Assembly (NCBI GenBank): GCA_951799425.1
Contig: OX637397.1
Location: 14,902,064-14,966,063 of the forward strand
Length of the DNA stretch: 64,000 nt
Origin: Ilex aquifolium
Taxonomy: Eukaryota > Streptophyta > Magnoliopsida > Aquifoliales > Aquifoliaceae
Direction of reading: 5' to 3'
Shown here: in pieces, positions 20,878 through 59,173 of the stretch
Layout of the letters: each line of letters begins with the position of its first letter
Position numbering within the stretch: position 1 is the first letter of the stretch
The notes under the pieces: model-generated
Database searches by the model: none
Seen by the model: only the letters and a program-made list of their open reading frames with translations
What the model was told of the DNA's origin: nothing
Program-made: the position numbers and the translations under genes

Positions 20878-21425
20878 TAGGCCTGGCAATGGATCAGATT
20901 TCAACCTGAACCCAAAGTTGTTTAAGTAGATATGGATCAAATTTTCAATCCATTAATTCCTTCCGATCTGATTGGATAAGAGTTGTCTAAATGGATTCGG
21001 ATATGAATTTATAATAATCCAATTCGAATAAAAAAAATATTATGTAAATAAATATCACACATATATTATACTTATACTAGAAAATAAATAAAAATAGAGT
21101 GAATATCACAATGTATGACACATTTTTTTTTAATTTTTTTTCCCCTCTTTTGTTTGATTTTCCCTCTTGCTTTTACTTTAATTTCATTTTTCCTCCTTTT
21201 TTTAGTTCATTATCCAAATTCTTATTTTTAATTTTTTGGTGTACATGTGTTTTTTGTGATAATCGGATCGAATTAAATTTTCGGATCAGATATCCAAAAA
21301 TTAATGGATTCAGATATGGATTGAATTTTTCAAATCCATCGGATAATCGGATTGGGAAAAACTTAATTGAATTCGGATTCGGATATAGGCCAATCCGGTC
21401 CATATCCGATCCGTTGACAGGCCTA
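20878..21425. mobile_element. hAT-type MITE
   Basis: 548 bp. Inverted ends read TAGGCCTGGCAATGGATC at the left and TAGGCCTGTCAACGGATC from the right. The 8-bp flanks TGTATGTC and TGTATAAC match at 6 of 8 positions. The arms are rich in repeated GGATA/AATCCG words. No coding capacity. Confidence 0.75.
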
Positions 21426-22698: not shown

Positions 22699-22710
22699 GC
22701 TTTGATACCA
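22699..22710 (-). other. Primer-binding site of the LARD
   Basis: On the minus strand TGGTATCAAAGC follows the LTR end after five bases. It is complementary to the 3' end of initiator tRNA-Met with one mismatch, and it sets the element's orientation. Confidence 0.75.
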
Positions 22711-22715
22711 AAATT

Positions 22716-24844: not shown

Positions 24845-25571
24845 CTTAGTGTATGAATCATTGCCCACTAGGTTGTGCTTGATTGGGATCTGGAGGGGCT
24901 CCTAAGGTACAAGGAGTTAATAGCCCAGATTAACAGATGAGATGATGAGACAAGTGAATTGGTGGTCAAAGGACCGAAACTATATGAGTATCCTTGATTG
25001 GACACCTTGATAGAGGTCTTAGAAATGGTTCCAAAGGGAAAAGGAAGACCCTGAGTACGCGTTCATTGGGGGCATTGCAGACATGACTATCCCATGGTCA
25101 TGCTCCCGCGGTGGCTAGTTGGGACTTGCCTCGGAGGATGTACCTTTTCCTCGATGGTCGAGTCCAGGCTATTTCCGAGAAAACATTATATCTGTCTAAT
25201 TAAATGTTTGGAACACTCGACATGCAATGAATGACCATCGACATAGCTATAGTTGAGACTATTACAGGTTGACACAACTGTTATGTACAACATTGACCCA
25301 TACACAGAGGTAGGGCAGCTCTGCTTGCTCAAGTACTTGTGTTATAAATACCTTCATCACTTACCCATATAGTACACACAATAACCTGGTTTGAAATAGA
25401 TATTTCGACTTTTGTGTGCACTCACTATCTCTACCTACTCGAAAAACTTTTTGTCCACCCAGTAGTTAATAGGTTACTCGAGTCCTTTCATCCCATCTGC
25501 TCATCCTACACATCCTTTTGAGTACATTGACATCAGATACATGTGTCAACCTCTTCAACTCTCTATCTACA
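24845..25571 (+). repeat. Tat-type solo LTR, right part
   Basis: Continues the LTR broken at 15368. It is colinear with the minus-strand LTR at 45858-47055 and shares a GAATTGGTGG...GACCGAAACTAT block and the final CATGTGTCAACCTCTT...CTACA. A TATA box (TTATAAATA) lies near 25340. The sequence after CTACA has no primer-binding site, so this is a solo or remnant LTR rather than the edge of a complete element. Confidence 0.78.
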
Positions 25572-37565: not shown

Positions 37566-38410
37566 TTTATCCAAATGATATAAAACTTGACCAAAATAAA
37601 CATTTTTCCATCGTAATTTTTTTTTAAATTTGACAAATAAGATGAAATACAAAATCCACGCTCACAAATAACCACATAACCTTTTTTTATGGGAAAACAT
37701 AATCAAATTCAATAACAAACAGCATAACGGATAAGAGTAATACAAATACATAAGTTTAATCGTCATACATAATACTACTTGTATATTGTTCGTAGACAAA
37801 AGAAATCTAAAAACATGGTCATTTACCATACATCATCCTACATAATACGTATAAATTCAACATCTAAACATATATCTCATAAACCACTCCTTAATATCAT
37901 CAAAAAATTATTTGGGTTCATCTGACCTTGGGGTTATTAACAGGAGAGCTAGCAGTAGTGTCTTCCCATGAATCATCATAAGGTCTTCTGCCTTAAATAA
38001 TAACCTCGTCACTTGTGGGCCCCACTGAAAATTCCTATGCCATCACATGGTTATTAGTTGCATTGAATACTAGGATTGAAGCATGAGTAGTTGCATTGAA
38101 GCATTGTCATGGCTATGGACTTGGGGGGTCGGTATACAAACCTTAACTAAATTATTTTATAATTAATTGAATATCAGCAATAATAATATGAAACTACAAT
38201 TATTCATGAAAATTATAACGCCTTAATGTAACACACACAAAGTTCCACATTTCTTACTTAAGACGTGAGATGGTCATGTCAAAAATATTTGCTCATCATC
38301 TCTTTCTTTTGTAATGTGACAATTATGGTTCGTTAACTTTAGTACAATGGAAAATGATAAGGAAGAAGAGATTGATTATGCTGGTTATGAGTTAATTAGT
38401 GATACATCCA
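37566..38410. other. Intergenic DNA
   Basis: AT-rich with no recognised gene or element. The LINE's truncated 5' end follows. Confidence 0.5.
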
Positions 38411-41400
38411 TCATACCAAAAGAAGCCAACAAGCACAACTTTGGAATATGATGAATATGATTATGAATGGTTCACCTAACCCTATCATCTTCATTGGAGA
38501 TTTTAATAATGTCACAGGCCAAGCTGAAAAACGTGGAGGGAAACCTGTTGCTAACTCATCTAATGGAGGCTTTGCAGCATTCATTAAAGACCAGGGATTA
38601 GTGGATCTTGGATTTGCAGGAAACCAGTTCACTTGGTCTAACAAAAGAGAAGGAATGGCCAACATAAAAGAAAGATTGGACAGATGCTTAGTTAATCTTG
38701 ATTGGAAAATGTTGTTTCCCAGAGCCACAATAAGACATCTCCCAGCTATTACCTCAGACCATTGCCCTCTCTTGCTAAATACTTATGGGGGAGAAAACCA
38801 ACTTTGCAAAACCTTTTAAGTTTGAGGCCATGTGGACTAGGGACACAAACAGTCATATCAAAAATGCATGGCACACAACTCTTAGGGGATCCATTGTCTA
38901 CAGATTCTGCAGGAAACTCCAATCAACCAAAGATGCCTTAAAGGAGTGGAATAGAAACCATTTTGGAAATTGCATCAAGAGAGAAAGGGAGCTAAAGACA
39001 AGAATCGAATGGTTGCAGCAAGCTGATCCAACACCAGATAACCTATTGGAGGAAAGAATCCTATCCACAGAACTTGCAGAACAACAAAAGACAGAAGACA
39101 TCTTATGGAGACAAAGGTCTAGAATCCAATGGATGAAGGAAGGGGATGCTCATACAAATTTTTTTCATTCAACCATAGTCATTAGAGGGAGGAGAAATGC
39201 AATAGACTCTGCCTGAAGCTTGTGGATGGAACATGGATCACAGACAGACAGGACATAGGTAACCAATTTCACTTCACTTTCAAACAATTTTCAACTCATC
39301 AAATCCACAATTCCCAACTGACCTTGAGAATCTCATAGCACCAATTATCACCCCAGAACACCACTCAGATCTGTGTGCCATCCCAAGCCCAGAAGAAATT
39401 AAAGCCAGTGTTTGCCATGCCCTCATTCAAAGCACCTGCCCTGATGGCATGTCCACCATCTTTTATAAAACATACGGGGCAAACAATAGGTGGGGACCTA
39501 ATAGACTTGGTAAGGAGTTTTTTTTGCTGGAGGACATATGCTCACTGAACTTAATAGAACAAACATTTGCTTGATCCCAAAAACTGCCAAAGCAACTTCT
39601 GTCCACCATTTCAGGCCCATTAGTTTATGCAATGTCGCATATAAAATTATCTCAAAGATCCTTGCTAATAGGCTCAGACCACATCTTGATCAACTAATTG
39701 CTCCAAACCAGACTGCCTTCATACCTGGTAAACACATAGCTGAAAACACTGTCCTAGCACAGGAAATAGTCCATCAGCTGAAAAAGAAAAAAGGCAAAGG
39801 AGCTTTAATGTTACTCAAAGTAGACATGTCAAAAGCCTTTGATAGAGTTGAGTGGCCATTCCTATTGCATATCCTCACGCTCCTTGGCTTCCTACTTCAC
39901 TTCATAAGCCTTATTCAACAATGCGTCACCACCGCATCTTTTTCTGTTCTTGTTAATGATGCTCCAATGGGCAGATTCAAGTCACAAAGAGGACATAGGC
40001 AGGGGGATCCCCTATCACCCCCACTCTTTGTTATCTGCACTGAAATTCTGTCTAGAATGATACATAGGAAAGCAATGCAAGGCAAATTAAAAGGAACCAA
40101 ACTGGCCAGGAACTGTGAAGCAATCAACCACATATTGTTTGCTGATGATCTCCTAATCTGTGGACATGCAAATGGCACTGAGGCAAAGGCTATCTCAGAA
40201 TGCCTTGAGTTGTTTGAAGAATGGTCAGGCCAACAAATTAATAAGGAAAAGTCAAGGATGTAGTACAGTAAACATGCCCAGGCTGCAACTATCAGAGAGC
40301 TAAAATGCATTTTGGGTCTGAAGAAAGGCACCACTGATGCAACCTATCTAAGACTCCCACTCTTTATTAACAGATCTAGGAACAGAGCATTCCATCCCAT
40401 CTTGCATAGACTTGAGACGAAACTTCAAGGATGGAAGTCGAAACTATTCTCATATGCTGGAAGAGCAACTCTCATCAAATCCACAGCCCTTGCAATGCCC
40501 ATTTATGCAATGCAATCCCATTTGTTACCCAAGAATATCTGTTAACAAATGGATGCAAAGATAAGAAAATTCTAGTGGAGACATACAGAGGAAAAAAAGG
40601 CAATGCACATCAAGTCATGGGACTATATTTGCATATCCAAACTGGTAGGAGGACTGGGTTTCAGGAAAATACATGATATTAACCTCTCATTCTTGGCAAA
40701 ATTAGGATGACAGCTACTTTCAAAACACCCAAGACAGTGGACGACACTTCTCAGTAGGAAATATTGCTCCAGAATGTCCTTTCTTCATGTTCAGAAACAA
40801 ACCCATGACTCCAACATTTGGAAACAAATTTTGGAATGCGGAGACATCATCAAGAAGGGAGCATGCTATTTAGTGGGGAATGGACATTCAATTAATATTT
40901 GGACTGAGCCATGGGTCCCCAATCTCACCTCCTTTAGAGTGCAACTTGATCAAGATGTAGATTGTCGTCCAACAACAGTGGCTGGGTTGATCCACCAGGA
41001 AACACATACATGGAATATGGAGTTGCTGCACTCACTCTTTAACCAACAAATTATGGAAGCCATTCACAGAATCAAGTTCCCTATCTACCCAAGAGATGAT
41101 CAAATGACATGGATTCCTTCCACATCTGGCCTCTTTCAAACCAAAACTGCATAAACACTCCAAAGAGAGGAAAGAGATCAAACAAGCCAGTACTTAGACA
41201 AGGCTGATCGGGAAAGCTATGGCATTCACCCTTGCATGAGAGACACAAAATGATGCTTTGGAGAATGGCAACTGAGAGCATTCCTACCAAAGGTCTCCTA
41301 GCTACCAGATTCCCTATCCCTGATATTTTTTGTCCATTATGTGGGCAATCAGCAGAAACAGATACTCACATCTTCTTCCTATGCCCCCTTACAAGAATGT

Positions 41401-41761
41401 TGTGGTTTGCTAAATGGGGTTTTAGATTTGATGCGTTTTTACATTTCACAATGCAAGAAAGGATCCACAATATCCTAAACCCAAGTTTACTCTTTGGCTC
41501 GAACAGCCCACCAGCACCCAGCTTACAATCTTTACTGCGGTACTAACCACAACCATTTGGAAATGGAGGAATAAAATCCAATTCCAAAAAGCCAGAATGG
41601 ACCCACAGGAAATTCTGAAGGAAGTCTCACAGTCCTTTAATGATTTTATTGAAATCAAACGGAGGCCACCTGCAGAGAACCCTCAAGGTGAAGAAGGCCT
41701 GAAAATGCAGTCAATATTGGACTTCTCCATAAATAAGGGGAATCAAGATTAACTTTGATAC
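38411..41761 (+). mobile_element. L1-type LINE, 5'-truncated, broken by a copia insertion
   Basis: Starts inside the endonuclease domain and runs through RT and zf-RVT to the first strand of a plant-type C-terminal RNase H (NFDT at 41750-41761), where the copia element is inserted. A continuation of its RNase H, carrying the same GATAC target bases, lies inverted at 47056-47225. Confidence 0.88.
38411..41761 (+). pseudogene. LINE ORF2 (endonuclease - reverse transcriptase - zf-RVT - RNase H start)
   Basis: Endonuclease C-terminal half: FIGDFNNVTG (38491-38520) and SDHCPLL. A linker with DILWRQRSRIQWMKEGDAHT follows. RT at 39538-40263 has RPISLCNVAYKIISK, KVDMSKAFDRVEW, RQGDPLSP and the catalytic box FADDLL. 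The thumb continues at 40312-40545 (YLRLPLFINRSRNRAF). The Cys/His zf-RVT region at 41232-41546 has FCPLCGQSAETDTHIFFLCP. Stops and frameshifts between these blocks (for example near 38819, 39217, 40263, 40545 and 41154) show it is dead. ORF1 and the endonuclease N-terminus are missing. Confidence 0.88.
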
Positions 41762-42548
41762 TGTTGGAGATTAGAGTTCCTTTTCCCCTTTTTACCATTA
41801 CTATGTTTTTTATATTTTGTCTAGACCACAAGAGTGTTTAGGTCACTTTGTACTATTATTTGGCTATATATATGGGGCTCTACCCTTATGTTCCGTTTGG
41901 TACGATGAAAAAATAGAAGGATGGAAAGTTGGAAGGATAGAAAGTGGGAGGAATAGATAAAACATCATGTTTGGTAAGGAAAGAAAGTAGTAAGGATGAA
42001 AAAGTGAATGAATTAACTTTCTTTCCAACTCACCAAAATCAATCCCTCCAAAATCGGAAGAAAAGTAGATGGAAAGTTAATTATTTGTGTTAAAATGTAT
42101 CTTATTTATCTATATATACATTAATTTCATATAAAAATACAATGATAAAATATGTATTTATATATATATATTTTTTTAAAAAATTAAAAAATTAAAAATT
42201 AAAATTAAAAAATAAAAATAAACAGGTCAACTCGCAACTCAATACGACACAATTGGTTAAATGAGTTGAGTTAGGTTTGACTAATGTTCAACAGAAACCC
42301 GTAATACCTCAACACGAATCTGACACGACACGACTCTATTGTCACCCTTAATTTTAGTCAGCACAAAAAAAAAAAAAAAATTAGTCATTTTTATTTTTCA
42401 TCTATCCAACCAAACACAAAATAAGGAAAGTATATCATTGCTACTTTCCTTTCTTGAAGGATAGAAAATGTATCCCTCCTACTTTCCATCCTTCCTACCA
42501 AACGGAGCATTAGTTTGAGTATCATTTTCACTCACGTTTATTCCAAGT
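41762..42548 (+). repeat. Copia 5' LTR (163 bp plus nested MITE)
   Basis: Starts TGTTGGAGATTAGAG and ends TTCCAAGT. Taking out the MITE and one TTA leaves exactly 163 bp, the length of the 3' LTR at 47226-47388. The two differ by about nine substitutions and two small indels. Confidence 0.9.
41889..42509. mobile_element. PIF/Harbinger-type MITE in the copia LTR
   Basis: 621 bp with a TTA duplication on both sides (41886-41888 and 42510-42512) and inverted ends TGTTCCGTTTGGTA / TGCTCCGTTTGGTA extending about 45 bp through GGATGGAAAGT. The 3-bp TTA target fits PIF/Harbinger. The other LTR of the same copia is an empty site. Confidence 0.85.
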
Positions 42549-43125
42549 TGGAATTAGAGTCATACCCTAACCCTACCCTTTTCCATCATCCTCACTGGCG
42601 ATTAATAGCCACCTCTCCACCATCCACAATCACCGACCAGCATACCAAACTCCCAGCGAACCAGCAAACACAAACCACAAACCAATAAACCAGCATAACC
42701 GACAGCCTACACCGACTGCCCAGGCCACACCGACTGCCAACATCAACCCAAGCACCGACAACCAACAACTAATACTACCTCAACCCACCGCCTAGTCAGC
42801 GACATAAAATACTACCTCAACAAACCAGCAGCAGTACCAAAGCCATAGCAAACAAATACCCATCTGCAACCAAATACCCACCGACAACAACACCAAACAA
42901 ATACCCACCAACAGCAACACAGCAGAACCCACCGGCAGCAAACAACTCCTACCCAAGTCAACTACCCAACCAATAAATCCACTGTCCAGCCCACAGACAA
43001 CCTGCCTAGCAAACCCAATAAACCCAAGTCATATTAAATCAACCCAAGTCCACCTGCCCAGCAACCCAATAAACCGAACCCAACCCAGACCAGCCCACTG
43101 TCCACCCAAGTGCCTAGCCTACTGC
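42549..43125 (+). other. Copia primer-binding site and A/C-rich leader
   Basis: TGGAATTAGAGTC directly after the LTR resembles the initiator tRNA-Met binding site with mismatches. From about 42590 to 43125 the + strand is overwhelmingly A and C, with loose repeats of ACCGAC, CCAACA and AACCCA. No gag reading frame can be recovered here. Confidence 0.65.
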
Positions 43126-45346
43126 TGGGTCTCTAATCAGTACATTATCGGGTCCTATTTTTTGTTGTAGTTTCGTCCTTCGTACTCTTCGTCACAGTGC
43201 TGCCAGGTTGCAGTATCTAGGACTTTTTTAAGAGGGGTCGGATCCTCTTCTCCGTTGATCTGCTTTTGATGCAGTAGATCACTTATTTATCTTTATTGGA
43301 TTTTTGGGCACCGTGATCTTGATTATTTGGGAGCTTCCCAGACCTTCTTTATCTGTTGCTACTGTTCGACTGGAGGTATATTATTCTCCCTTATTTTGTC
43401 CCTTTATTTATCTTAGAGTTTTTTCTGTCACGGGTGCCCACGTATTGTTATTGCTATGGCTACTACTGTTGAGACTTCTGTTGTTAGTACTTCCACCTGG
43501 AATGTACCTCCTGGTTCTCGCCAGTGTGATTATTGTGGCCGACCAGGACATCACAAGGCTACTTGCTGCAAGCTCTATCCGAAGCTTAAGCCACCTCCTC
43601 GCAGCCGTACTGCTACTATTGTTGAGGTACCACCACCTACTGTCGCTGCTCCTCCTCCTTGGCAGAGTGATATGGATGTTATCACTTCCCGATTGGATAT
43701 ACTTATGTCCGCCCTGACTTCTCAGGGTCCGACTACTACTGCTGCCACCACTACAAGAATACCTCGTGCCTTTCATGTTTGCGCCAGTCCGTCTCCCCTT
43801 TGGATGCTGGACTCGGGTGCGAATGGTCATATGACAGGTGAGGCCCATCACTTCACCACTTTTGACGAGCAATTACATACACAGGTTCAGCTAGCAGATG
43901 GGACACATGCCCCTATTGTTAGTAGGGGTACAGTCCACCTCTAGATAGCTTTACATTACATTCGGTTTTTCATGCGCCAAAACTGGCCATGAATCTATTA
44001 TCCGTACATCAATTAGCTATAGATTTTCACAATGTGGTTGTGTTTTTATCTCATTCATTTTATTTGCAGGACCTGAGTACTAGGAGGATTATTATCAAGG
44101 GACATGAGAGAGATGGACTGTATTATCTAGGCGATCCACCTCTAGTTTCACCAGTTCCTCCACCTCCATCACCTGCACTTACTTTGTCTTTATCTATTCC
44201 TAGCTTGCATGCTAGTATTTTGCCTAGTACTTGTCGTTATGATTTTTCATCACAAAGTGTTCAATTTGTGGCATGACCGTTTTGAACATACAAATTTTAA
44301 ATATTTATGTATGTTATTTCCTGATTTGAGCAATGCTTGTATTGGTGGTAAACTTGACTGTGTTATATGTTCCCTATCGAAACATGTTCGAACCAGTTAT
44401 ATTCCTTGTATGCACCAGTCGCCGAAGCCATTTGACCTAATACACTCTGATATTTAGGGACCTTCTCCTGTTACTGCTCTATCAGGTGCTCGATACTATG
44501 TGACATTTATAGATGACCATACCCGTTGTACTTGGGTCTACCTTTTGCATAGGAAGTCTGATGTACTCACTGTCATCAATTAGTTTCTCTAGATGATTAA
44601 GACACAATTCGATGTCATTGTTCGTGTTCTTCATTCGGATAATGCCAAAGAATATGTGTCTGATGCCTTAGTGTCTCACCTTTCCTCTCAGGGTATCCTT
44701 CAACAGCTCACTTGTCCATATACTCCTGAGTAAAATAGAGTTGTTGAAAGGAAAAATAGGAGTCTAATAGGGATGGTACGTTGTATGCTTAGAGGTATGG
44801 GGGTACCAAAATCTTATTGGCATTTTGTTGTTTTGACTTCTACCTTTCTGTGTAATCGTACACCGAGTCGTGTTCTTCAGCATAGAGCTCCCTTACAGGT
44901 CTTATTCCCTGAGCGGACACTTTTTTCGGTCCCTTCTCGTGTTTTTGGCTGCACGTGTTTTGTTTAGGATCGGTCTCTTACTCGTCATAAGCTTGATGAT
45001 AAAGCGATTTGTTGTGTCTTTGTGGGCTATTGTCATCAGTCTAAGGGGTATCGGTGTTATGATTCTATCAGGTGTCGTATGTATCACAGTCTAGATGTTA
45101 CCTTTTTTTAGCACATTCCTTATTTTTCTTCCAGTCCTGTGTCTGCCCCTCCAGTTGATGATACTCCCTTTGATTTTCCGTTACCACAGGAGACAGAGCC
45201 ATTAGTCACTATCACTACAGAGTTATCAGTTTCTCCTCCTCCAGAGCCACTCGTCCCTGTCAGTACGGAGTTACCAGTTCTCTCTTCCTTTGCCGGTTTA
45301 TGTTCGTCGCCCTCGCTCTCATCCCCCTACTGATGTCCCCTCTACC
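43126..45346 (+). pseudogene. Copia gag zinc knuckle, protease and integrase
   Basis: Gag before 43456 is too worn to read. A CX2CX4HX4C zinc knuckle (CDYCGRPGHHKATC) lies at 43526-43567. Protease follows at about 43795-43860 with WMLDSGANGHMTG. The GAG-pre-integrase and integrase core run 44090-45110: FIDDHTRCTWVYLL, LHSDNAKEY, VVERKNRSL and the GYCHQSKGYRCYD tail. In-frame TAG/TAA stops occur at about 44455, 44581, 44593, 44731, 44965 and 45109, mostly where the family has Gln or Trp. The linker ends VYVRRPRSHPPTDVPST at 45346, the inversion break. Confidence 0.88.
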
Positions 45347-45347
45347 T

Positions 45348-45673
45348 AAGGGGTTAGTTGCATCAATTTGCAGCAGAAGTGGTAGGGGTTCACTGGTAGG
45401 ATTTTGCAAAGTTAAACCATAAGGTCTTGACTTCCGTGATGCACCATTATCGCCCGACAGTGCCATTGGAGGAGATGCCGACAAAGTCGAAGGTGGTGGC
45501 ACCAGGTACTGTGGGAGCAATGGCAAGAACATCGGTGGATTCTGCAAGCCAGGTGATAGGCCAGGTGGTCGGAAATACATCTGAGCTTGAATCATCTGCA
45601 TTACCGCAGCCATTTGTTGTTGCAGAGTTTGCATATCGTGTAGAGCATGTGCCATTGCAGAGGGCCCTGGCAC
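45348..45673 (-). pseudogene. Tat-element gag N-terminus
   Basis: Minus strand, starting in a Gln/Met-rich stretch (DMQTLQQQMAAVMQMIQAQM), then a Pro-rich part. It lies downstream of the Tat LTR and primer-binding site and is cut off at 45348 by the inversion break. The rest of gag is at 49235 on the + strand. Gag forms the particle; no domain is assigned to this part. Confidence 0.7.
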
Positions 45674-45834
45674 CTCCGGAGCCCTTCAGCTCGTAAAGGA
45701 ACCATGGCTATCCTCACGCTGGGGTGTGTTTTTTTGCTGCTCACCTTCCTTGTCGTTGTTGTTTTCAGTCATCGTATTAGACAATACTCTTCCACTTCGA
45801 GTTGTAATAAACATAGGCTAGCGAGGCCAAACCT

Positions 45835-45851
45835 CCCCAGTGGAATCGCCA
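45835..45851 (-). other. Tat primer-binding site
   Basis: On the minus strand TGGCGATTCCACTGGGG follows the LTR end (CTACA at 45858-45862) after six bases. This layout is normal for a gypsy 5' LTR and fixes its orientation. Confidence 0.7.
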
Positions 45852-45857
45852 AAAGAA

Positions 45858-47055
45858 TGTAGGTGGGGGGTTAAAAGAGGTTGACACACGTGTCTATGTC
45901 AAGGGTAATCGAAGGGGGTGAGTAGGATAAGTGGATGAGATGGAAGGAACTCAAGCAGCCTCTTAACGAAGGGACGAACCAGTTAGGCAGAGTGTAGGTG
46001 AAAAATGCTCTCACCAGTAGAAAATCATCTGTCGTCGTGGACAAGTAATATGGGTATTTATAGCACAGTGGTCGGGCAGGTCGGGCTGCCCAAAGGGCTT
46101 CCCGCCGCGACCCCCTACCACTCGCGCTAACCCACAACTGTCTCGACTGCGACGATACTAGTGGTCGTTAACGGCGAGACATGCATCCCAACATTAACTA
46201 GGCAGATGTGATGTTTTCCCAAACGCAACCTGGACGTGGCCCCGAGGAGGGTGTGACAGCCAAGGTGAGAGAGGGCTCCCAAGGTCCATGACCACAACTG
46301 GTCACCGTGGGACCATGACCTTGAGAGGTGCCTGCGATGCCCCTAACGCGCTCCTACCTGGGGTTCTTTTTTCCCTCTCTAGACCCTTCCTCGAGACTTT
46401 TGGCGAGGTGTCCGATAAAAGAAATCCACATAGTTTCGGTCTTTCAGCCACCAATTCATATGTCCCATCATCCCATATGCTGATCCGGGTCAATAACCCC
46501 AGTTACCTTAGGAGTCTCTCCGGATCCCAGTCAAGCACATCCCAGTGGGCAGTGAGTCATACATTGGGAAGCCTGCTCGAGCAAACTAAACCTTCAAGAC
46601 CTTGCCCCAGGCCGAGGTTGACAATCGTGCTCATCCACCCCTATTGCTTAATTCTCTCTTGAGAAGGGCCATGTTCCCCTGTCCCTAGGTGGGGACGCCT
46701 CTTAGTCCAGTGGGCCTGTCGAGCAACGACATTCAGTAGGTTGAGAATACCATTCCTGCGGCGGGGGATGCGAGTCTCGCCGAGGTTGCCCCCACACTTC
46801 TGCGATTCCATTTTTGCCCGACCTTGGTGAAAGGTCCATCTTGCCACTTCTAATGCGATGGAGATGTATCTCGCCCTGATACGGTATTGTGCTTGAGGGC
46901 GTCGCGCCCAGGAATGTCACACTTGTCACTGTTATCTATACCAGTCCAGCTGAACTCTATCGAGTCCCATTTCCACGTTAACTGATAATTGTTACCACTT
47001 GTCCTGTTATGGTGGAGACACGTGTCTTGAAGTTTTTTGAGTACTACAGGTTACA
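45858..47055 (-). repeat. Tat-element 5' LTR
   Basis: About 1.2 kb; minus-strand start near 47055 (TGTAACC, inferred from where the LINE match stops) and end CTACA at 45858. A TATA box (CTATAAATA on the minus strand, about 46050-46062) precedes the presumed R/U5. Homologous to the split solo LTR at 15100-15368/24845-25571. The start is uncertain because the 3' LTR is outside the window. Confidence 0.75.
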
Positions 47056-47225
47056 CAATTCCATCTCTATTCATGCACCCAAGTCATAGCCATTCTTGCT
47101 GGTAGAACTTCAGCTACTAGTGGTTTTGTGTCTGCTACAAGTGCCACTTGTGCTGCTATGACTTCTCCTTGTTCATTCCTAGCTAATGTTGCAATGCAAG
47201 ATCCTGAACTTCCAATAGTTGTATC
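47056..47225 (-). mobile_element. LINE RNase H fragment, continuation of the LINE at 38.4-41.8 kb
   Basis: The minus strand reads GEVIAAQVALVADTKPLVAE and ARMAMTWVHE, a plant LINE RNase H (RVT_3) segment. It begins with the same GATAC that precedes the copia LTR at 41762, so it is the other side of that insertion, now inverted. It ends where the Tat LTR begins. Confidence 0.85.
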
Positions 47226-47388
47226 ACTTGGAATAAATGTGAGTGAAAATAGATACTCAAACTAAGAGTAGAGCCCCGTATATATAGCCAAATAATAGTA
47301 CAAATTGACCTAAACACCCTTGTGGTCTAGGCAAAATATAAAAAACATAGTAAGGGTAAAAAGGGGAAAAAAACTCTAATCTCCAACA
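47226..47388 (-). repeat. Copia 3' LTR
   Basis: 163 bp, minus strand, TGTTGGAG...TTCCAAGT. The purine tract TTGAGGGGAAG lies directly before it (47389-47399 on +). Confidence 0.92.
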
Positions 47389-49231
47389 CTTCCCCTCAAG
47401 CTAGGCGCAAAACTATCAACTAAGTTAAGCTTGACAACGGAGTCCTGAAGAATGAATAGAGTGATAGGTTTGGTGAACACATCCGCAACCTGATCACTGG
47501 TCCCCCACAAACAATGGAGTAACAATACCATAACTAACCTTCTCCCGAAGAAAGTGAACATCAATCTCTATATGCTTCGTCCTCTCGTGTAGTACAGAGT
47601 CAGAAGTGAGCTGAATAACATATCGATTATCACAATATAATGTAGATGAAGAAGTCACTGGAAATCTCAACTCGTCAAGAATCGATTGTAGCCAGATAAT
47701 CTCGCACGTGCCAAGTGTCAGTGCCCGATACTCTGCCTCTACTGACGAGCGGGAGACAACTGTCTGCGTCTTGCTCTTCCAAGAGATAAGATGAGTCCCT
47801 CGAAAAGCACAGAAGTCCGTAGTAGATCGACCGTCACACGCTGCCCCATAATCTGAATCTGAATAACAGGCTAGAGAACTAATCTGAGATCCTGATGCAT
47901 AGAACAACCCAAGTTCAGGACAAGACTTGAGGTACCGAAGGATATGATAAACTGCATCAAGATGAGGCTGACACGGCCTGTGTATGAACTGACTAACTTG
48001 GCTGACAGCGAATGATATGTCTGGCCTAGTGTTGGTTAGGTAGATAAGTCTACCTACCAACCTTTGATAAACAGTCGGATCTTTCAACTCCTTATCTTCA
48101 ACAATAAGCTTCAGGTTTGAAATCATGGGTGATGATGCCGGTTTGCACCCCAACATCCTAGTGTCTGAGAGAAGATCCAGAACATACTTTCTTTGCGAAA
48201 GAACAATACCTCTGCTACTACGGGCAACCTCAATCCTAAGAAAGTATCGTAGAAATTCAAGGTCTTTCACATCGAAGGCCTTCCCAAGGTCTACCTTGAC
48301 CTGCGCAGTCCCAGAAACATCATCTCTAGTAATAATAATATCATCAACATATACCAAAAGGATGACACATTGTCCAGAAGTATTCCGTTGAATGAAGCAG
48401 GTATGATCAAAATGACATCTGGTGAACCCTAAACGTACAACCACACCACTAAACCGAGAGAACCAAACTCGTGGTGACTGTTTCAGTCCATACAGAGACT
48501 TACGCAGTCGACACACCTTCCCAACATACTCCCCCTCACCACGAAAGCCTGGTGGTGCATCCATATAAATAATCTCATCTAGATCACCGTGAAGAAACGC
48601 ATTCTTCACATCTAACTGATGAAGAGGCCAAGAGTACTCCGCAGCCAGAGAAATAATCAACCGAACAATAGTCAATTTTGCCACGGGGGCAAATGTAGCA
48701 CCAAAATCGCGACTTAGTACCTGAGTAAAGCCTTTCGCCACAAGCTTGGCCTTGTGACGATTAATAATACCATCTGCAAGAAACTTCAGGGTGTAAACCC
48801 AGCGACAGCCAACAGGCTTCACCCCTGAAGGTAAAGAGACAAGATTTCACGTATGATTACGCTGAAGAACGTCCATCTCCATTTTTATGATAAGAATCCA
48901 TTGGGGCTCCCGCATAGCCTCTGAAACAGAGCGAGGAACCGAAGTATCTGATAAGACCATACTATAAGCTCGAAATGTAGGAGACAGATCACCATAAGAA
49001 ACATAAGCAGAGATCGGATATAAAGTCTTGGCAGTCCAACCATAACGAACAATTGGACGACGATCACGCTGCGGATAACGACGCCCTAAATTATCATCCT
49101 CCACTGACAATATCTCATCAGGGAAAGTAACTGGCTCAGTACCTGCAATCTCATCAGTACTAACAATAGGTGTATCAATATGCTCAACGAACTGAGAAGT
49201 ATTACCTGCATCGCCTGGCCTCGCTGCTTCC
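47389..49231 (-). pseudogene. Copia reverse transcriptase and RNase H
   Basis: Minus strand; the long open frame 48822-47494 (442 codons) is nearly intact. RT: KPVGCRWVYTLKF, LDVKNAFLHGDLDEIIYM, SLYGLKQSPRVWFSRF and the catalytic LLVYVDDIII. Then LVGRLIYLTNTRPDISFAVS and RNase H with CYSDSDYGA, SWKSKTQTVVSRSSVEAEYR and LYCDNRYVIQL. Upstream (49110-48847) is the pre-RT linker ending in MREPQW; a short disrupted piece separates it from RT. A frame change near 47494 precedes the C-terminus. It is the second half of the copia whose first half ends at 45346. Confidence 0.92.
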
Positions 49232-49234
49232 TAA

Positions 49235-50589
49235 ATGGCTCATCTCACCATCTTTACAACAGTACCGATAACTACCCAAGTGTGGGGTCAAACTATTTTT
49301 TCCACTATCCCTGCAACCATGCCTTCAGCATTTTCGGCCCCCATCACCGCCACCTCGTTTCGATCAGCAGCCGCTTGGACGCCGTACTCGGCCAGCACAG
49401 AACGGCTAGTGCCTAGTGCTGGGTTTATCACGCTAGCCAAAGTACAGGTCGTACTGGATAGACAGAAGGAGCCCATGCAAACAACCATGGACATAAGGTC
49501 CAAGTTTACCCAGACTGTGCAGTAAGTAATGTATCCATCAGGGTACTCATCGCCGAAGTTCAAGAAGTTAGATGGAAAAAATGGCAATCCCAAGGAGCAC
49601 ATTACCCGTTATCTTGATAGCCTTGGCAACTATGTGCTCCACGAGCCTCTTCAGATGAGGTAATTTTCCAAGTCCCTCAAGGATAGGGCCTTCACCTGGT
49701 ATGCTAACCTCCCGGTAGAATCAGTGAGGGATTGGGAAGACTTGGTCGCACAATTCTACGCAAAGTTTTTCCATGTCGAGCAGCGCACTACAATACTTTC
49801 CCTGAAGAAGACTAAGGATGACGGAGAAGCCCTAATGACAAGTTCCGTGACAAAGCCATCGAGCGCCAAGAAAATGTCACCGAAGAGGCCCTTGTCTGGA
49901 TCTGCATCGACGGAATGCACAACAAATACAAGGCATACTTGGTGAACAGTGACTTTAAAACCTTTACTAGGTTATGTGAATCTGCTCAAAGGCTTTCGGA
50001 GGTGGTCCAACCCTCCCTGAAGATAGTCGGTTGGAAGGATAAGAGGAAATGAGCAACTATTGTAGTTGTTGAGGATGTCCCGAAGGGGGGTCAGCGTCCA
50101 AAGAAGTGAGGGAAAGCCTCCAAGCCCGAGGAGCCACCTCCGTATCCTTGTGGTATGAAAGAAGTCCAACAAATTCTCATGGAATGGATTAAGAACGATG
50201 ATATCGAGCTACCACCAGTGGAAAATGAGCCAACTAGAGAAGAAAAAAATAGTCCGACCTTCTGTGAATTTCATCGCCACACCAAGCACAACCTTAAGGA
50301 TTGTTGAACCATGCACCGACTATTTCAGAAGCGCTTAAAGAGTGGAGAGTTGGTACTAACGAGCGCCGGGGGCAATGTCCATGATCGACCCCTCATAGAC
50401 CACGAAGAAGGTAAGGAGGTGCACATGGTGTCGTTCTACGACCAAATCGAGGATATAGCGGAAGGTAACTTCGAAGAGTGGCCTGGAATTCAGTTAAATC
50501 GAGAGACCTTAGAAGATTGCCACGTTGTGCCAGAGATTGACCCCTACGCGAGTACAAGTATCTTGAAGGAAAATGTTGTTGTCCGAATT
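49235..50589 (+). pseudogene. Tat-element gag
   Basis: Retrotransposon gag homology at about 49526-49800: YSSPKFKKLDGKNGNPKEHI, LKDRAFTWYANLPVESVRDW and LVAQFYAKFF. Near 50268-50310 a C-X2-H-X4-H-X4-C motif (CEFHRHTKHNLKDC) is the Tat-type zinc knuckle variant, followed by a TGA where Trp is expected. In-frame stops also occur at 49523 and 49661, with frame changes after about 49800. Gag is interrupted at about 50590 by a solo LTR. Confidence 0.8.
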
Positions 50590-52103
50590 TGGTATTGACA
50601 ATTTACGTGCAAGTATACACGATCAACAAGTAATAAAGTGATAAGTAGAATATCGTTCTCACGGAGAATTATTGCTAATAACTTTCAAGTACTAACTTTA
50701 TATCAATTCAATTTTATTTAAACAATTGCAATCAACTATGAATTTACTAATTTAAGAAGAAACCTAAATTTAATAATCAAAGATTGAATTTAACGGATAG
50801 AAGAAGTTAAGATTACAACTTCCCCTAATGCTTCGTATAAATCTCTCCACTCTCTTTCCAGTTAATTGATCAAATTGAATTGTTAACTGAGACTTCAAAA
50901 GTATTTATCAAACCTCTTCCGATAGTATGATAAGCATATCTCTCCCAATTAAATTGCTATATTCCTATGCAAAATAAGTTGGAATAGATTCATTAAGTTC
51001 AAACTCTCATACAAGTTACACACGGCATATAGGTATATTCCTATCCTATACACAAACCCAGCAATTCAATCCGAAGAAGAATTAACCAGACGCATGTCAT
51101 CATATTCAGATCTAAACCTAGAATTCATCTCCCAATTTCATCTAGGTTATCAAATTAATTGATGGCCAAACAATTATATATTAAACACAAAATATGACAA
51201 ACAACTCATATATGATCAACAAGAACTAGAAACGAGAGTAGATAAATTTAACTAGACATTAGGTTCTGTTGCAATCTTAATAAAAATTTAGTTCATAATG
51301 TAATTGAAAAACATCCTTCTCAAATTAAACAACATCTTAGAAAATCAAGAAGTAAAAGTAAGGGAAAAGAATGAAAACTTAGTTGCAAGCTTCAATCCCT
51401 CTCTAGCCTTCAAGTCCGATTTTCTTCGTGTCGGTTTCTTCGATTCTTGCCTTCAATTTTCTATCAATCATTGGTCTTCTTCTCTATATGTCTATATCCC
51501 TTTTCAGCCCCCAAAGTCATTATATTTATATCCCCATCAAACCCTAGGCACATAGGAGTCATTAGAGTCTAATTTCAGGTCAAAAAGGAGTCATAATTCG
51601 CGTCCAACGTCAGTGGGGGCGCGCTGGGGCGCTGGGACAGCGATGGGGAGCTGGGACAGCGCTGGGGCGCTGGTAAGGCAGCATGTTGGCGCAGGGGCGC
51701 TGGTTTTGGCGCCTAGGCGCGCCTCCCTTTTTCTTCAGCCTTGGACCAGTTTTCATAAAATCGTCATAACTTTTGATCCAACCGTTGGATTGAGCTGAAA
51801 TTTTGACACAATACAGAAGACATCCAGATCTACAACTTTCATGTTTTTCACTTTTCCAGATTCTGAGTTGATCATGGTCAAAATGGAGGAAAACCGAGGT
51901 GCCTTTGTTACCAAACACCAATACCTCCTTGATTTCTTTCACTTTTAGGCCTCCACATCCTTGTTTCCTTCCAAATAATGATTCCTACAAAATAACATCA
52001 ACACACACAAAACAAATAAAAAAGAACATAAAATAATTGAAAACTTGCAAATTCCTCAAGCCGAAAGTACTCAATTCGTAGGTATAAAACCCACTCATCA
52101 ACA
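50590..52103 (-). mobile_element. Solo LTR inserted between Tat gag and protease
   Basis: 1.5 kb without genes. On the minus strand it begins TGTTGATGAGTGGGTTTTAT and ends near TACCA, with a TATA box (GATATAAATATAAT, about 51520-51535). Element coding resumes at 52104. A clean 5-bp duplication is not evident (GTCCGA left, GTCGA right). It includes a GC-rich GGGGCGCTGG repeat patch at 51610-51725. Confidence 0.7.
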
Positions 52104-53410
52104 GTCGAGTTCAAAATTTTCTTTAATCAGTTGGGACTTACTGATGGTACCAGATTGGAAGCCACCAAGGTCATCATAGACTTGTGCGCTGATAGGCCCT
52201 CAAGCCCCGAGAAGTGCATGGTTGCGAAAGGCTCGGTGTCCCGCAGTATTAAGGAAAGGTCTAATGCCATCAGCTTCACGGAGCGGGATCGCCAAGTACC
52301 CTGGAAACACAATCGCCCGCTCTACGTCACCACCAAGATCAATGGGGTATAGTTGAAAAGGACTTTCTGGACAATGGGGCCTCAGTCAATGTCATGCCTT
52401 TGTCCACATATGAGCAGCTTGGACTTTGCGACTCAAGTTTTTCAGAAAAATGACTATCATCGCCAAATTTACCAGCGACAAGAGAAGGACCCTCGGGTAT
52501 GTCGCTGTCTCTTTGGTCATGGGGAAGGTGAGGGTACCTACGACCTTCCATGTGATCGATGCTCCTATGAGTTATCATGCGCTCCTAGGGCGCACCTGGA
52601 TGAATGATCTAGGAGCAATCCCTTCTACGTACCACCAGTGCATGAAGATGATTTGGAATGGAAAAGAAGTGATGATACCTGCGACCGAGGACCCTTTTAG
52701 AGGCAATGAGGCACACTTGACGGAGGAAGCACTATACGATGAAGTGGCCGAAGACGACGAAGTCGCTAGTCCGCTACAACAGCCCTTGTCCTTCCCTATT
52801 CCTTCCTGAGATGAGGTTCAGCGAGAAGTCTATGTAACACCGCGAAGGGTTAGTGTGAAAGAAAGGCTCGGAGAACAGGCTCGAAGAAAAAGGCAAGTTG
52901 AAGAGTCCTCGCGAGAGGTGGCTCTAAAGAGATGTATATGTCATGTCCTACCTGATGGGCGAGTCACTTACCAGTTATGATGGTGTGGGGGGACCACTCA
53001 CGAGGCCGGGAGGGTGAGTCCCCGAGACGAGATGCATGAAGCAGAGCCAACATCACCGCGACGCCCACTAACGTGGTCCCTGCGCTAGAATGCATGGAGG
53101 ATCGCCCTAAGCCGCATGAGTAGGGGCTCTAGGAAGTAAACCTCGCCCCACTTGGGGAATCATCGTGGCCAGTCTTCATCTGCAAGGGGCTATCCCCAAA
53201 AAAGAGGCAGGCGTTCTTGGTACTAATGATCGAATATGCTGATATTTTTGCATAGAGATATGAGGAGATGCCCGGATTGGACCCAAGTCTAGTCTGCCAC
53301 AAGCTAAACATCTGCCCCTCAGACAAGCCTGTCAAATAGAATTCGCGAAACTACGCCCCTGAGGTAATGATAAAAATCAAGGAGGAGTTGGAAAAGCTAT
53401 TGAGGGTTAC
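52104..53410 (+). pseudogene. Tat-element aspartic protease and RT N-terminal part
   Basis: Reads SFTERDRQVPWKHNRPLYVT before protease. The protease active-site triad appears as LDNGASVNVMPLSTYEQLGL, with DNG where D-S/T-G is usual, then DAPMSYHALLGRTWMN. At about 53130-53410 comes the pre-RT region: EEMPGLDPSLVCHKLNI and MIKIKEELEKLLR. TAG stops at 53256 and 53337 replace Trp and Gln. RT is split at 53410 by another solo LTR with a GTTAC duplication. Confidence 0.82.
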
Positions 53411-55798
53411 TATAAAACCCGGGTGAATTTGAACTTTTTTCTGAAAAAGGGCAAAATAGTAATTTACCACCGCTATGCGGATTTGAAATAAGTATTTCTC
53501 TAGACCTTGGATGAGTAAACGGACTTCACCATTGGATTCGTATCACGAAATCCAATTACCCTGCCAAATTTCGTCGAATTCTGAGATAGTCAAATTTTTG
53601 CACGTGGTTCGAGGTGGCTGGGTGGCGAATGACCTCGCAAAGGTCCCCACAAATAAATTTGAACTTAAACCGAGATCAAATAAATCGTTTCGGGGCGAAA
53701 ACGGACCCGAACAAGTGAGGGGCGTGTGGCGCGATCTGAGCCAAGTCTTGGAAATTATAAATAGGGCTAAAATTAGATATTTTGGCATAAAAATCTGCTG
53801 GAATCAGCTGGTTTGAACGTTGGAGAGAAAGAGAGAAATCCAAGACTTCCTTCGGCGATTCTCGAAGTTCCGTCACTCGGATCGACTCGGACCAAGAGTT
53901 AAAGTCGATCACCGCGACAAGGGCTACGCAACCACACCAAGAACGAGTGATTTCACCGAAGATCCAAGAGGAGACTTTGGAGAAATCAAGAGTTTTGGGA
54001 GCTTGAGAGGTGTTCTTGGAAGTTCTACCTTTCAATTTACACACCAAGAGGTAGGGTTCTTCCTACTTTGGTTTTATTCCTACCTTTTGGGCTGATTTAA
54101 GGGGTTGTTATGTGGTTGTCTAGGGGCTGTTTTATGGTCTGTTAAGGGGCTGAAATTGCGGCTGTTTTGGGTTAAAATTTTGGACTGTTTTGGGTTGAAA
54201 TTGTGGGCTGTTTTATGGCTTGTCTATGGGCTATTTTATGGCTTGTTTAGGGGCTGTTTTATGGCCTGTTAAGGGGCTGAAATTGCGGCTGTTTTGGGTT
54301 AAAATTTTGGACTATTTTAGGGACTGTTTTGGGTTGAAATTGTGGGCTGTTTTGTGGCTTGTTTTGGGGCCGTTATATGGCTTGTTTAGGGGCTATTATG
54401 TGGGCTGTTTTGTGGGCATATTATATGTTTACATTATGCCTTGAGGATTAAAGGTGTTATTGTTTGATTATGTGATGACATGCTTGGTTGTTGTTGTTAG
54501 ATAAAATGTTGATATATGTGTATTAATATATTGACATTGGGATGAGTTTTTGGAGGTTATATGTATATGATATGATTGTCCATGATACATGATGAAATAT
54601 GTGATTTAAGTTGTCCATGTGACATTAACTACATATGAGACATGACATTGACATGCAATGGTACATTACATTGCATATGCACGGGGACATCGCATTCCAT
54701 GGGTGTGAGTGCATGGTTGAAAGCAAACACCACATTTGGTGATTGATAAGTGGGCTCGGTACCGTTGGACCAAGGTTCAACAGAGTCGCACGGTCGCATG
54801 ACATGGAAAACTTGTGTCGGGTATAGCAAGAAGGGCTAGACACTCCCTCGGGTGAAAAACCCGGTTACTGGTTCATACACTCCGACGGTGAAAGTCCAAA
54901 AAGTGTAGATAGGCTTGCAGAGCCGGCGGTGTGATTCTAAAATCCGCTACCCATAAAGACTCATGGTTTTGTTTCTGAAATGATCATTCGATGTGTAACA
55001 TCCAACAAGTTTTGGTTTATAAACACATGACTTTTATTTCAAAGTGATCATTGGATGTAATTCATCAATGACGAATTTTATTATACATTGGCATTGCATT
55101 GTGTGGTGGGAGTTGGTGAAGACTCGGGTTATGATGCATGAGTGAGTTTCATCTCATTTCATAGCATGACATGTAGAATTCCAACCTAGAATTGCATATT
55201 CTTAATTGGAATGTTGATGTGAATATAGATTGTTGAATGTGAACATTGCATGTACACTTAGGTGGGGAGTAACCTCTATAGGAATTACTCTACTGGGCGT
55301 GGCTCACCCTATACGGGGAAATATTTCAGGTGCGGGATATACGCCGGTGGACGGTTCTCATTCGGGGCCTCAAGGGTGAAGAAAGCCGACATGTTGCTTT
55401 TATAACTCTTTTTGTAAAACTTTTGGAGCAAATTAGTTTTGACATGTAATTTTATGTAAGAGAGTTGTAATGGAACTCATATGGAATGTTTTTAATATAA
55501 CCTTGCATGTTTTTATATGAGTATGGATAAATGGACCCGGTGTGGTCAATTTTTACTCATAAATGGACCCGGTGAGGTCATTGTGTTATAATGGACCTTA
55601 GATGGGTCATGTTAATGTATATTGTACAGGTTGGGTTTTGGGTAGAGCTCCCCGTACAAAGGAGACTCTGTCCGATTTTGTTAAATTATGGATCCCAGTA
55701 AATGGAACACAACGGTGTGATATCGAGTTACACGATATCCATAGGAATTCCGCGGGTGGATGGGTGATCAACGGACTCCTGAATTTTGGGGCGTCACA
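53411..55798 (+). mobile_element. Solo LTR inside Tat RT
   Basis: 2388 bp flanked by a perfect GTTAC duplication (53406-53410 and 55799-55803). Starts TATAAAACCCGGG, probably a mutated TG start, and ends GGGGCGTCACA, a common gypsy LTR end. A TATA box (TTATAAATA) lies near 53755. No coding content. It contains a tandem repeat at 54123-54377. Confidence 0.88.
54123..54377 (+). repeat. 127-bp tandem repeat
   Basis: Two units about 127 bp apart, each beginning GGGGCTGTTTTATGG, and each built of smaller GGGCTGTTTT and GGGTTGAAATTG blocks. Confidence 0.85.
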
Positions 55799-57022
55799 GT
55801 TACCTTCATCAAGCCTATTTAACACCCTGTGTGGCTGTTAAACATAGTGCCCGTCAAAAAAAAAAATGGGGTCATCATGATATGTGTAGATTTCAGGGAC
55901 TTGAACATGGCGTGCCCGAAAGACGAGTTTCTGTTGCCAAATGTTGACATTCTCATCGACGTTACCTTTGGGGCACGAGATGATGTCTTTCATGCATGGG
56001 TTTGTGGGGTACAATCAAATCAAGATGGCCGAGGAAGATGCAGAAAAAACTGCTTTCAGGACCCCATTTGGCAACTTTTACTATACAGTAATGCCTTTTG
56101 GGCTGAAAAACGTAGGCGCAACCTATCAACGTGTTATGGTCGCGATTTTTCATGATATGATGCACGATATTGTGGAAGACTATGTCGATAACCTTATTGT
56201 AAAATCGCGAAAGGAGGAGGACCATATGACGGACTTGCGAAGAGTGTTCGAAAGGTGCCGAAAGTATAACCTATGCATGAACCCCCTAAAATGTGCCTTC
56301 TAAGTAACAGCAAGGAAATTTCTCGGCTTCTTGGTACATCGGCATGGCATAGATCCGGATGCGGGAAAGATAAAGGCTATCCAGAACATGCCCGAGCCTA
56401 GAAGCAATTGAAAAGTTTCCTCAGGAAGGTGTCCTACTTACGGCGATTCATTCTAGCCCTTTCTGAGGTAACCATGCCGTTCACCCCTTTACTCAAGGAA
56501 AAGGAACCATTCAGTTGGAATGTGGAGCAACAGTAAGCTCTCAACACAATCAAGAAGGCCCTCGGCTCCACCCAAACTATGGTTGCACCGCGAAAAGGCC
56601 AACCCTTGTTATTGTATCTTACCTCCACTGGAAAGGATGTAGGAGGATTAATAGCACAAGAGGTGGAGGGTCTGGAAAGGCTCATCTATTACTTCAATTG
56701 CATTATAAAAGATGCAGAAACGAGGTATCCCAGGGTGGAAAGGCATTGTCTGGCCTTGGTATTTGCAGCACAGAAGTTGCGACACTACTTTCTTACTCAC
56801 GAGGTCAAGCTGATAACCAAGTGTGACCCTCTCAAGTATCTGTTGACACGCCCCGCCCTAACAGGAAGGGCAGCGCGATGGCTCCTCACTCTATCGAAAT
56901 TCGACATTGAACGTGTAGCTCTGAAAGCGATAAAAAGTCAGGCTCTGGCCGACTTATTGGCCTATTTCCCAGATAATGAGTATGAACCACTCAAAAAAGA
57001 GTTGCTAGGAGGAGAACCATAG
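55799..57022 (+). pseudogene. Tat-element reverse transcriptase and first RNase H
   Basis: RT: IVPVKKKNG, CVDFRDLNMACPKDEF, GYNQIKMAEEDAEKTAFRTP, YTVMPFGLKNVGATYQR and the catalytic box as YVDN (YVDD expected). RNase H of the gypsy type at 56560-57000: PLLLYLTSTGKDVGGLIAQE, ETRYPRVERHCLALVFA and TRPALTGRAARWLL. Stops at about 55820, 56301 and 56533 and frame changes near 55960 and 56400 kill it. Confidence 0.88.
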
Positions 57023-57109
57023 CAAGGGCTTCCCGCAGTCACGATACCCTCAAAGACCACGGGACCCTCCACAACTGTGGAACCCGCATCCATCGCGAAA
57101 ATACTTACT

Positions 57110-57757
57110 ACAATGGATGTCATACCCCCACCCAAGTGGCACTTAGTATTCGACGGCTCATCTACCCTAAGTGGGGGGGGGGAAGGGAATAGTGCTGACT
57201 AGACCTGAAAGCGAGGAGAAAATAACTTTGTCATACAAATTAGATTTCGATGCAACAACAATGAGGCAAAATATGAAGCACTAGTTCTAGAGTTACTCAC
57301 GACACGAAAGTTAGGCATACGAAACATCCAAATTAGGGGGGACTCAAAACTTATCATTAAACAAGTAATTAGGGAATGTGGTGTGAATGAGTCAACACTT
57401 GTCAGCTACAAGGCATTGGTACATCAGTTGCTAGAGGAATTCGAGGAGGCCACCATTGAGCATGCCCCGCGAACAGAGAATAGGTTCCCCGACACGCTGA
57501 CTACTTTGGCATCAAAATTAGACATGGTAGAGGAAGAGGCGACCATCCAAGTAAAAAGGCAGACACTGCCGAGTCCTATTACTGAAATTTTTCCCGCCAC
57601 AAACTACGAAGATTGGAGAACCCCTATAGTGGAACAGTTGAAAAAAAGGACAAGAGAAATCCCGGTTAAAAAACTAAGCCAATTCACTATGATAGGCGGG
57701 ATGCTACACTTTTGCGGCCCTGAGGGAGTTCTCCTAAGATGTCTTTCACAGCAATAA
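57110..57757 (+). pseudogene. Tat-element second (archaeal-type) RNase H
   Basis: KWHLVFDGSS (57136-57168), NNNEAKYEALVLELL (about 57256-57300), IQIRGDSKLIIKQV (57328-57368) and the HAPRTENRFPDTL end give the D-E-D acidic set. A second RNase H after the gypsy one is a hallmark of the Tat lineage. A G(10) run at 57173-57182 and a second slip near 57250 shift the frame. Confidence 0.85.
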
Positions 57758-59173
57758 TCACGCGACAGATTGGTCCAAGTCCACCAAGACACCTGTGGGG
57801 ACGCAGACATCAGTCTTTATAGGAGACTCCATTGGAGAGGGTACTATTGGCCGAAAATGGCCAATGATGCCAGGGAGGTACAGCGAAATTGCCTCCGGTG
57901 CCAGGAGCACCCCGATTCCAAGGAGTGCATCATCGTAGAAGAAGTAGGGTACTGGCGCCAACTATAGATCAACTTTCTTCGTGAAGGGTCACTTCCGGCA
58001 GACAAGAGTGCCGCGACAATGGTCAAAAGAATAGCCCCTAGGTTCTTTTTGAATAACAATGAACTATATAGAAGGGGGTTCAATGGAAAAAGCCTAAGGT
58101 GCCTTGCGGGAAATGAAGTTTTGGAGGTGCTAAAAATGTTACATGCCGCAAAAACACCAAGGGGGGCGAAACTGTACACCCAGATGTTGGACTTGGGGTA
58201 TTACTGGCCGAAGATGAAAGGGGAATGCATAGAGCACGTACGAAGGTGTGATGTCTGTCAGAAGCACGGGGATCTCATTCATGCATCTGTCGTAAACTTA
58301 AGGACTTTAGCCACCCCATGACCCTTTCATACTTGGGCCACGGACCTCATGGGACCCATCAATCCTCCATCTCGCGAAAATATATGGATAATGGCCGCAA
58401 TAGAGTTGTTTACAAAATGGGTGGAGGTTGTGCCCCTAAAAAGGACGACAAGGAAGGTCGTGTCCGGCTTTCTAAAGGAAAATATAATTTACAGGTTTGG
58501 CTTCCCTAAACACTTGTTGTCGGATAATGGCACCCCCTTCGTTAATAGAGGCGTTGCTGCAACGTTACAGCAATATGGGGTGATCCACCATACCTCCACA
58601 CCATACTACCCACAAGGAAATGGTCAAGCTGAGGCCACTAATAAGACATTGATATAGATCTTGAGCAGGACCATCGAGGATGGGAAAGATTGGGCTGAAC
58701 AGCTGCCAATAGCGCTATGGACCTATAAAACCTCAAAAAGAAAGCTCACTGACGCAACGCCCTATTCGCTGGTCTATGGTGAGGAAGTGGTACTCCCTAC
58801 AGAGATAATGGTACCCTCCGCGAGGTTGGCAGCCAGAGCCGAGGTGACCTCAGATGTGAGACACGCAGCGTTAGAAGCACTTGATGAGCACCGAGACGAG
58901 GCAAGGGAACACTTGAAAAAATATCACCGGAGAATGTCTAAGGCTTACAACTTTACGGTAAAGCCAAGGACCTTCCAAGAGGATGATTTGATGCTAAAAA
59001 TAATCCCAACTGTTATGCACTGCCTGGCCACTCTTAAGTTCTCCGCCAAGTGGGAAGGACCTTTCGAAGTCCGGAAGGTTGAGGACAACGGATATTGTGA
59101 AATCAGGCGCATCAAGTCAGAGAAAATAATGGAGAAGTTTAATGTCAAATGGTTGAAGCTATACTACTCTTGA
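57758..59173 (+). pseudogene. Tat-element integrase
   Basis: One reading frame broken only by stops at about 57755, 57965, 58319 and 58656. Catalytic core: ATDLMGP, LSDNGTPFVNR and GQAEATNK give D-D-E with about 35 residues between the last two. A C-terminal region with FSAKWEGPFEVRKV and a normal end at 59173 (KWLKLYYS). Upstream are two zinc-binding-like modules: YYWPKMANDAREVQRNCLRC and, 110 codons later, YYWPKMKGECIEHVRRCDVC. Integrase inserts the DNA copy into chromosomes. Confidence 0.9.

Follow-up and report, generated by a model that had tools for sequence, protein, structure and literature searches.

Within a window of 64,000 nucleotides of Ilex aquifolium (the window being the whole stretch of DNA analysed, G000:C7:14902064-14966063), a copia element, a LINE and a Tat element are each present in two orientations. 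This raises the question of whether a single inversion has turned over parts of all three, whether the turn took place in the plant or in the assembly, and by what route it arose. We consider it probable that one inversion, made by end-joining, passed through a copia and a Tat element nested in a LINE and is younger than all three. The rationale behind our analysis is that the window's own assembly (800 Mb, 103 contigs) could be searched, so that family copies of each element were available for comparison. Order and orientation, both target duplications, the positions of the breaks, the loss and the 2-bp overlaps were all read against these copies.

Organization of the locus

The features are listed below, in positions of the window.

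38403..41761 (+), 5' and middle portions of the LINE (an endonuclease-like stretch, RVT_1 and an RNase H-like start); start approximate, being that of the first ORF piece; ends in GATAC (41757-41761)
41762..45347 (+), copia left part, comprising 5' LTR, protease, integrase, SH3 and the linker as far as the left break (from the LTR pair and the Pol_BBD, rve and SH3_retrovirus domains)
41762-42548 (+), copia 5' LTR, containing a 621-bp insertion flanked by TTA
45346..45347 (no strand), left break, with the 2-bp microhomology CT (21/25 displayed copia copies, 7/8 Tat copies)
45348..49217 (-), inverted segment, 3870 bp, from comparison with family copies
45348..45857 (-), Tat primer-binding-like site and N-terminal part of gag (ATG at 45772-45770; from the translation, and matched by 8/8 Tat loci)
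45858..47048 (-), Tat 5' LTR, 1191 bp, now opposed to the 3' LTR at L041:2402-3590
47049..47225 (-), LINE middle piece, RNase H region, with TAACC at 47053-47049 and GATAC at 47225-47221
47226..47388 (-), copia 3' LTR (LTR pair; 47226 is where many copia LTR matches start)
47389..49217 (-), copia linker, reverse transcriptase and RNase H region (RVT_2, E 5.8e-69, profile 6-243 of 244)
49216..49217 (no strand), right break, with the 2-bp microhomology TG (23/25 displayed copia copies, 7/7 Tat copies)
49218..59173 (+), remainder of Tat: gag past the break, reverse transcriptase, RNase H, additional RNase H (RVT_3) and integrase (Pfam)

The host of both LTR elements is the LINE, which lies in three pieces: one up to 41761 (+), one reversed at 47225-47049 (-) and one following the Tat 3' LTR (+), where the reading of the RNase H resumes. 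Its reverse transcriptase is secure (RVT_1, E 8.4e-37 in 39514-40263), and in the Pfam search Exo_endo_phos at 38403-38819 remained below the cut-off, 40711-41154 matched no family, the middle piece taken alone gave no match and the piece past the Tat 3' LTR reached RVT_3 at E 0.0013, also below the cut-off.

The copia element has protease and integrase ahead of the reverse transcriptase (RVT_2) and is bounded by LTRs, with one order in the family copies, as is characteristic of Ty1/copia. Pfam gave no family for its linker ORF (48847-49230) and placed gag_pre-integrs below the cut-off. The two LTRs are 93.7% identical over 127 columns (41762-41888, forward and ahead of the insertion, against 47388-47263, reverse). 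The target duplication GATAC stands before the 5' LTR on the forward strand and after the 3' LTR on the reverse strand, split by the flip; the continuation of the LINE RNase H across the copia with a shared GATAC, as the original prediction had claimed, is thus borne out. LTRs usually end in the letters CA; both copia LTRs (47226-47229, 42545-42548) appear to end in ..CCAAGT, as judged from GATAC and from the primer-like site that follows. The insertion in the 5' LTR (41889-42509) is MITE-like: it ends in the inverted repeats TG(T/C)TCCGTTTGGTA and is flanked by TTA at either end, and the 3' LTR has a single TTA at the matching position, which is the empty site. In type it resembles PIF/Harbinger.

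The second LTR element shows the domain order of Ty3/gypsy (RVT_1, partial, and RT_RNaseH, then Integrase_H2C2 and rve). A site at about 45851-45835 (-) is presumably its primer-binding-like site. Retrotrans_gag was just above the cut-off in gag, and Pfam found no family for the N-terminal part of gag or for the second gag piece, and only matches below the cut-off for 58658-59173. The native-type RT_RNaseH (56537-57022) is accompanied by an additional RVT_3 (57209-57757), and an additional RNase H adjoining the native one is given as a hallmark of Tat (PMC10508981). The 3' LTR lies 2.4 kb beyond the window and is identical to the 5' LTR at 1064 of 1183 aligned bases. Reading it showed that Tat had inserted in the same LINE as copia, which the original prediction had missed: TAACC precedes the 5' LTR on the reverse strand and recurs after the 3' LTR, followed by the end of the LINE, so that this duplication too was split by the flip and its pairing is visible only outside the window. 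Matches to the LTR side of a query across the LINE/LTR junction end at 47048 in 6/6 cases. An earlier placement of the LTR start near 47003 with ACAAG as the target duplication was replaced by 47048 and TAACC once the 3' LTR had been read.

Several other observations were made in passing. Between the gag and the reverse transcriptase of Tat lies an imperfect tandem repeat array (54085-54414), with a reference copy of 110 nt that the others overlap at 61-84%. A relative of the Tat LTR (+, 64-71% identity) occupies 15272-25571 and is split by an element of about 9.5 kb whose long direct repeats lie at 15449-18898 and 22756-24848; the whole may be a solo LTR into which another LTR element has inserted. 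No tRNA and no Rfam match was found in the window. Relatives of the copia element were found in neither viral_contigs nor genome_contigs, and relatives of the Tat gag in neither viral_contigs nor plasmids. The copia reverse transcriptase matched four plasmid records, among them two small linear 'plasmid' records from Kitasatospora and Streptomyces (NZ_CP115454.1 and NZ_CP115302.1; L001, L002) with a copia-type reverse transcriptase at 37.9% identity over 98% of the query; these two look like plant contamination. The family comparisons below draw on the plant's own genome in place of such records.

Order and orientation in the family copies

We compared the copia element with 28 loci, all elsewhere in the genome (L012-L014 and L016-L040). 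The two halves that are opposed in the window are contiguous and in one orientation in every one of them, the halves overlapping by at most 4 bp or lying at most 3 bp apart; left-half matches end at 45344-45351 and right-half matches reach 49216-49218 in all 28, the left half of L039 being additionally interrupted further upstream. Among the eight Tat loci, both sides were on one strand in seven, and the eighth (L007) showed one side only. In the LINE, the three pieces follow one order on one strand in all four relatives, two of these by partial matches: L048 and L049 matched the LINE pieces only in part. The left-piece matches of L046 and L047 stop at about 41651. Because the relatives share this order and strand, both LTR elements can be placed in one LINE whose middle piece is now reversed.

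These comparisons agree with what had been proposed from the sequence: the left break joins forward copia to reverse Tat gag and the right break reverse copia to forward Tat gag, according both to the domains and to the copies, and turning the segment over restores the copia. A single inversion that cuts copia and Tat and carries the LINE middle piece is therefore well supported (28/28 copia, 7/8 Tat and 4/4 LINE loci), the DNA between the two breaks being the same DNA, reversed. The Tat element required a correction. Its LTR, primer site and gag start do lie on the strand of the remaining gag once the segment is turned, but they do not simply run into it. In the seven copies the two sides are separated by 174, 187, 223, 223, 223, 223 and 224 bp, and the content of this gap is missing here. 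Since the copies hold that stretch between both sides, about 223 bp of Tat gag were lost at the break, the exact loss in the present element being uncertain because the length of the gap varies from 174 to 224 bp among copies. A search for the missing stretch in the window and four flank loci gave three weak matches: each of the two query copies matched 38 bp at 2769-2806 (E 0.001), and the third match measured 24 bp (E 0.22). We do not take them for a relocated copy.

The break junctions

Base-level display of the junctions covered 25 of the 28 copia loci. Both joins are without inserted bases, and copia has lost 0 bp when the overlaps are counted as its own and 4 bp when they are not. At the left join, CTAAGG against the copia CTCAGG would permit an overlap of 6 bp with one mismatch. 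The window alone spans the joins: with 301-base queries it was the only spanning match among the 40 scored of 370 candidates for the left join and among the 40 scored of 362 for the right, the other 39 being one-sided in each case, and it was likewise the only one among the 40 scored of 732 candidates for the LINE/LTR junctions. The 26-base word at the left junction occurs once in the genome at up to two mismatches.

Of the segment first claimed, 45347..49232, the left end stands and the right end moves, the copies giving 49216/49217, about 15 bp further left. The proposal of end-joining at a shared CCTAA was likewise right in part, in that end-joining is retained and the letters are present at both breaks, but they are not the junction homology, which according to the copies is CT at one join and TG at the other, about 2 bp each. 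The right CCTAA (49230-49234) belongs to Tat, about 13 bp in from the break, at a position where 7/7 Tat copies read CCCAA, and the left one was created by the join. Because the copies set the break at 49216-49217 and carry CCCAA inside Tat, the earlier right end falls together with the argument from CCTAA, whether as microhomology or as the target duplication of an inserted segment. A model without loss and in frame, with short palindromes, was also abandoned, as it rested on the wrong right break, and the 3.1% chance of a 5-mer common to the two joins has no bearing once CCTAA is dismissed.

Origin of the inversion

That unrelated fragments of copia, Tat and LINE merely came to lie in such orientations by chance might be entertained in a locus full of nested repeats, but it is refuted by the matching of both target duplications and of both LTR pairs, by copia halves that complement each other without overlap and by a LINE order shared with relatives, and we give it practically no credence. 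A 3.9-kb contig placed the wrong way round by the assembler deserves more attention, as the locus is repeat-rich and the uninverted order is that of the family copies. Nevertheless, there are no Ns in the window, both joins run on seamlessly, overlapping by about 2 bp and costing copia at most 4 bp, there is no inverted repeat near the breaks to confuse an assembler, and a mere flip leaves the missing stretch of about 223 bp of gag unexplained. A search of the genome with the LINE middle piece revealed no second, uninverted locus: of its five matches, only the piece itself reached 100%, the other four being 72-81% identical. As these arguments are drawn from the sequence, they make an artefact less likely rather than impossible; we regard it as improbable, and a genuine inversion is our best reading.

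With regard to the route, two or three double-strand breaks repaired by end-joining appear to be the best mechanism, because the breaks fall in coding parts, long homology is lacking, the overlaps are of about 2 bp and the deletion is local. The double-strand breaks and their joining are, like the correctness of the assembly, parts of the best explanation that we infer. The 300 bp on each side of the two breaks have no notable repeat in common; what they share is limited to 8-10 bp words and to weak matches of E 0.53 at best, and the microhomology and losses are small, although about 223 bp is large for the class. An overlap of 2 bp has a chance of 0.156 at a random join and of 0.024 at both (uniform bases), and since such overlaps are prone to arise by chance and are absent from some family copies, they say little on whether the end-joining was classical or alternative. 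Template switching of the FoSTeS/MMBIR type, in which a stalled replication fork jumps to the opposite strand and back and leaves a stretch turned over, accompanied by short microhomologies and a local loss, is compatible with the 2 bp at both joins and with the one-sided deletion; it is nonetheless unlikely, in that neither join has inserted bases, copia is balanced to within 4 bp and two-break end-joining is simpler. Repeat-mediated inversion is a known route, and homologous recombination between inverted repeats would follow it, yet the breaks lie in coding parts of copia and Tat and their 300-bp flanks hold nothing beyond the short words and weak matches just described. Inversions induced by transposons are known in maize (PMC8225341), but alternative transposition of DNA transposon ends meets the same objection as to the position of the breaks, and no transposon end is seen at either of them; both routes together are very unlikely.

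The RNase H domain of the LINE was struck twice, by Tat (Ty3/gypsy; TAACC) and by copia (GATAC). Under end-joining, breakage would have come later, with a single break in the copia linker and either one break or two neighbouring ones in the Tat gag, and the 3.87-kb fragment would have been rejoined in reverse with about 2 bp of homology per join, Tat gag losing about 223 bp in the process and copia 0-4 bp.

Age of the inversion

Because copia and Tat each have parts inside and outside the segment, the inversion must be younger than both insertions, and therefore younger than the LINE; the original claim that it postdates all three is well supported by this splitting of the two elements at the segment edges. 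The distance between the Tat LTRs is 0.111 (K2P) and that between the copia LTRs 0.058 (SE 0.022; 126 sites), the latter from the 127-column piece only, because the alignment misplaced the small second LTR piece. At substitution rates of 7e-9 to 1.3e-8 per site per year, which may not be those of the host, the nominal insertion ages are 4.3-7.9 My for Tat and 2.2-4.1 My for copia, and the inversion, being younger than the copia insertion, would nominally be under 2-4 My old.

Comparison with known rearrangements

Of 23 inversions in irradiated Arabidopsis, 20 had a junction with 2-23 bp of microhomology and 11 were flanked by deletions of 1-61 bp (PMC8581144). The present case is like these in that one segment is turned, with microhomology of a few bases and small flanking losses, and differs in being natural, in lying within nested retroelements and in having lost about 223 bp on one side against their 1-61 bp (PMC8581144). 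As in the nested plant LTR retrotransposons of PMC6911290, in which 5-bp target duplications are given as the commonest class in most families, copia and Tat sit in an older retroelement with 5-bp duplications; unlike those nests, the present one was later cut and partly inverted. That text has words in 'inver' once (inverted-repeat) and words in 'rearrange' once, in a general sentence, and PMC2773423 concerns large inversions. The event is thus an ordinary, small rearrangement without evident function, and a well-resolved new example of an already known kind.

Since the inversion, the LTRs of each element are opposed, those of copia about 5.4 kb apart and the 1.19-kb arms of Tat about 19 kb apart. 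It is conceivable, though we think it doubtful, that opposed LTRs shield both elements from solo-LTR deletion, permit re-flipping by recombination between LTRs and yield a silencing hairpin RNA if transcribed through; if so, hairpin RNA from read-through transcription would silence both the copia and the Tat families. What the locus does offer is a record of a small inversion at nearly base level: two independent target duplications, together with the family copies, allow the earlier arrangement to be inferred. Nested repeats can act in this way as recorders of small rearrangements that are otherwise hard to detect in repeat-rich DNA, and split target duplications together with opposed LTRs constitute a signature that could be scanned for genome-wide.
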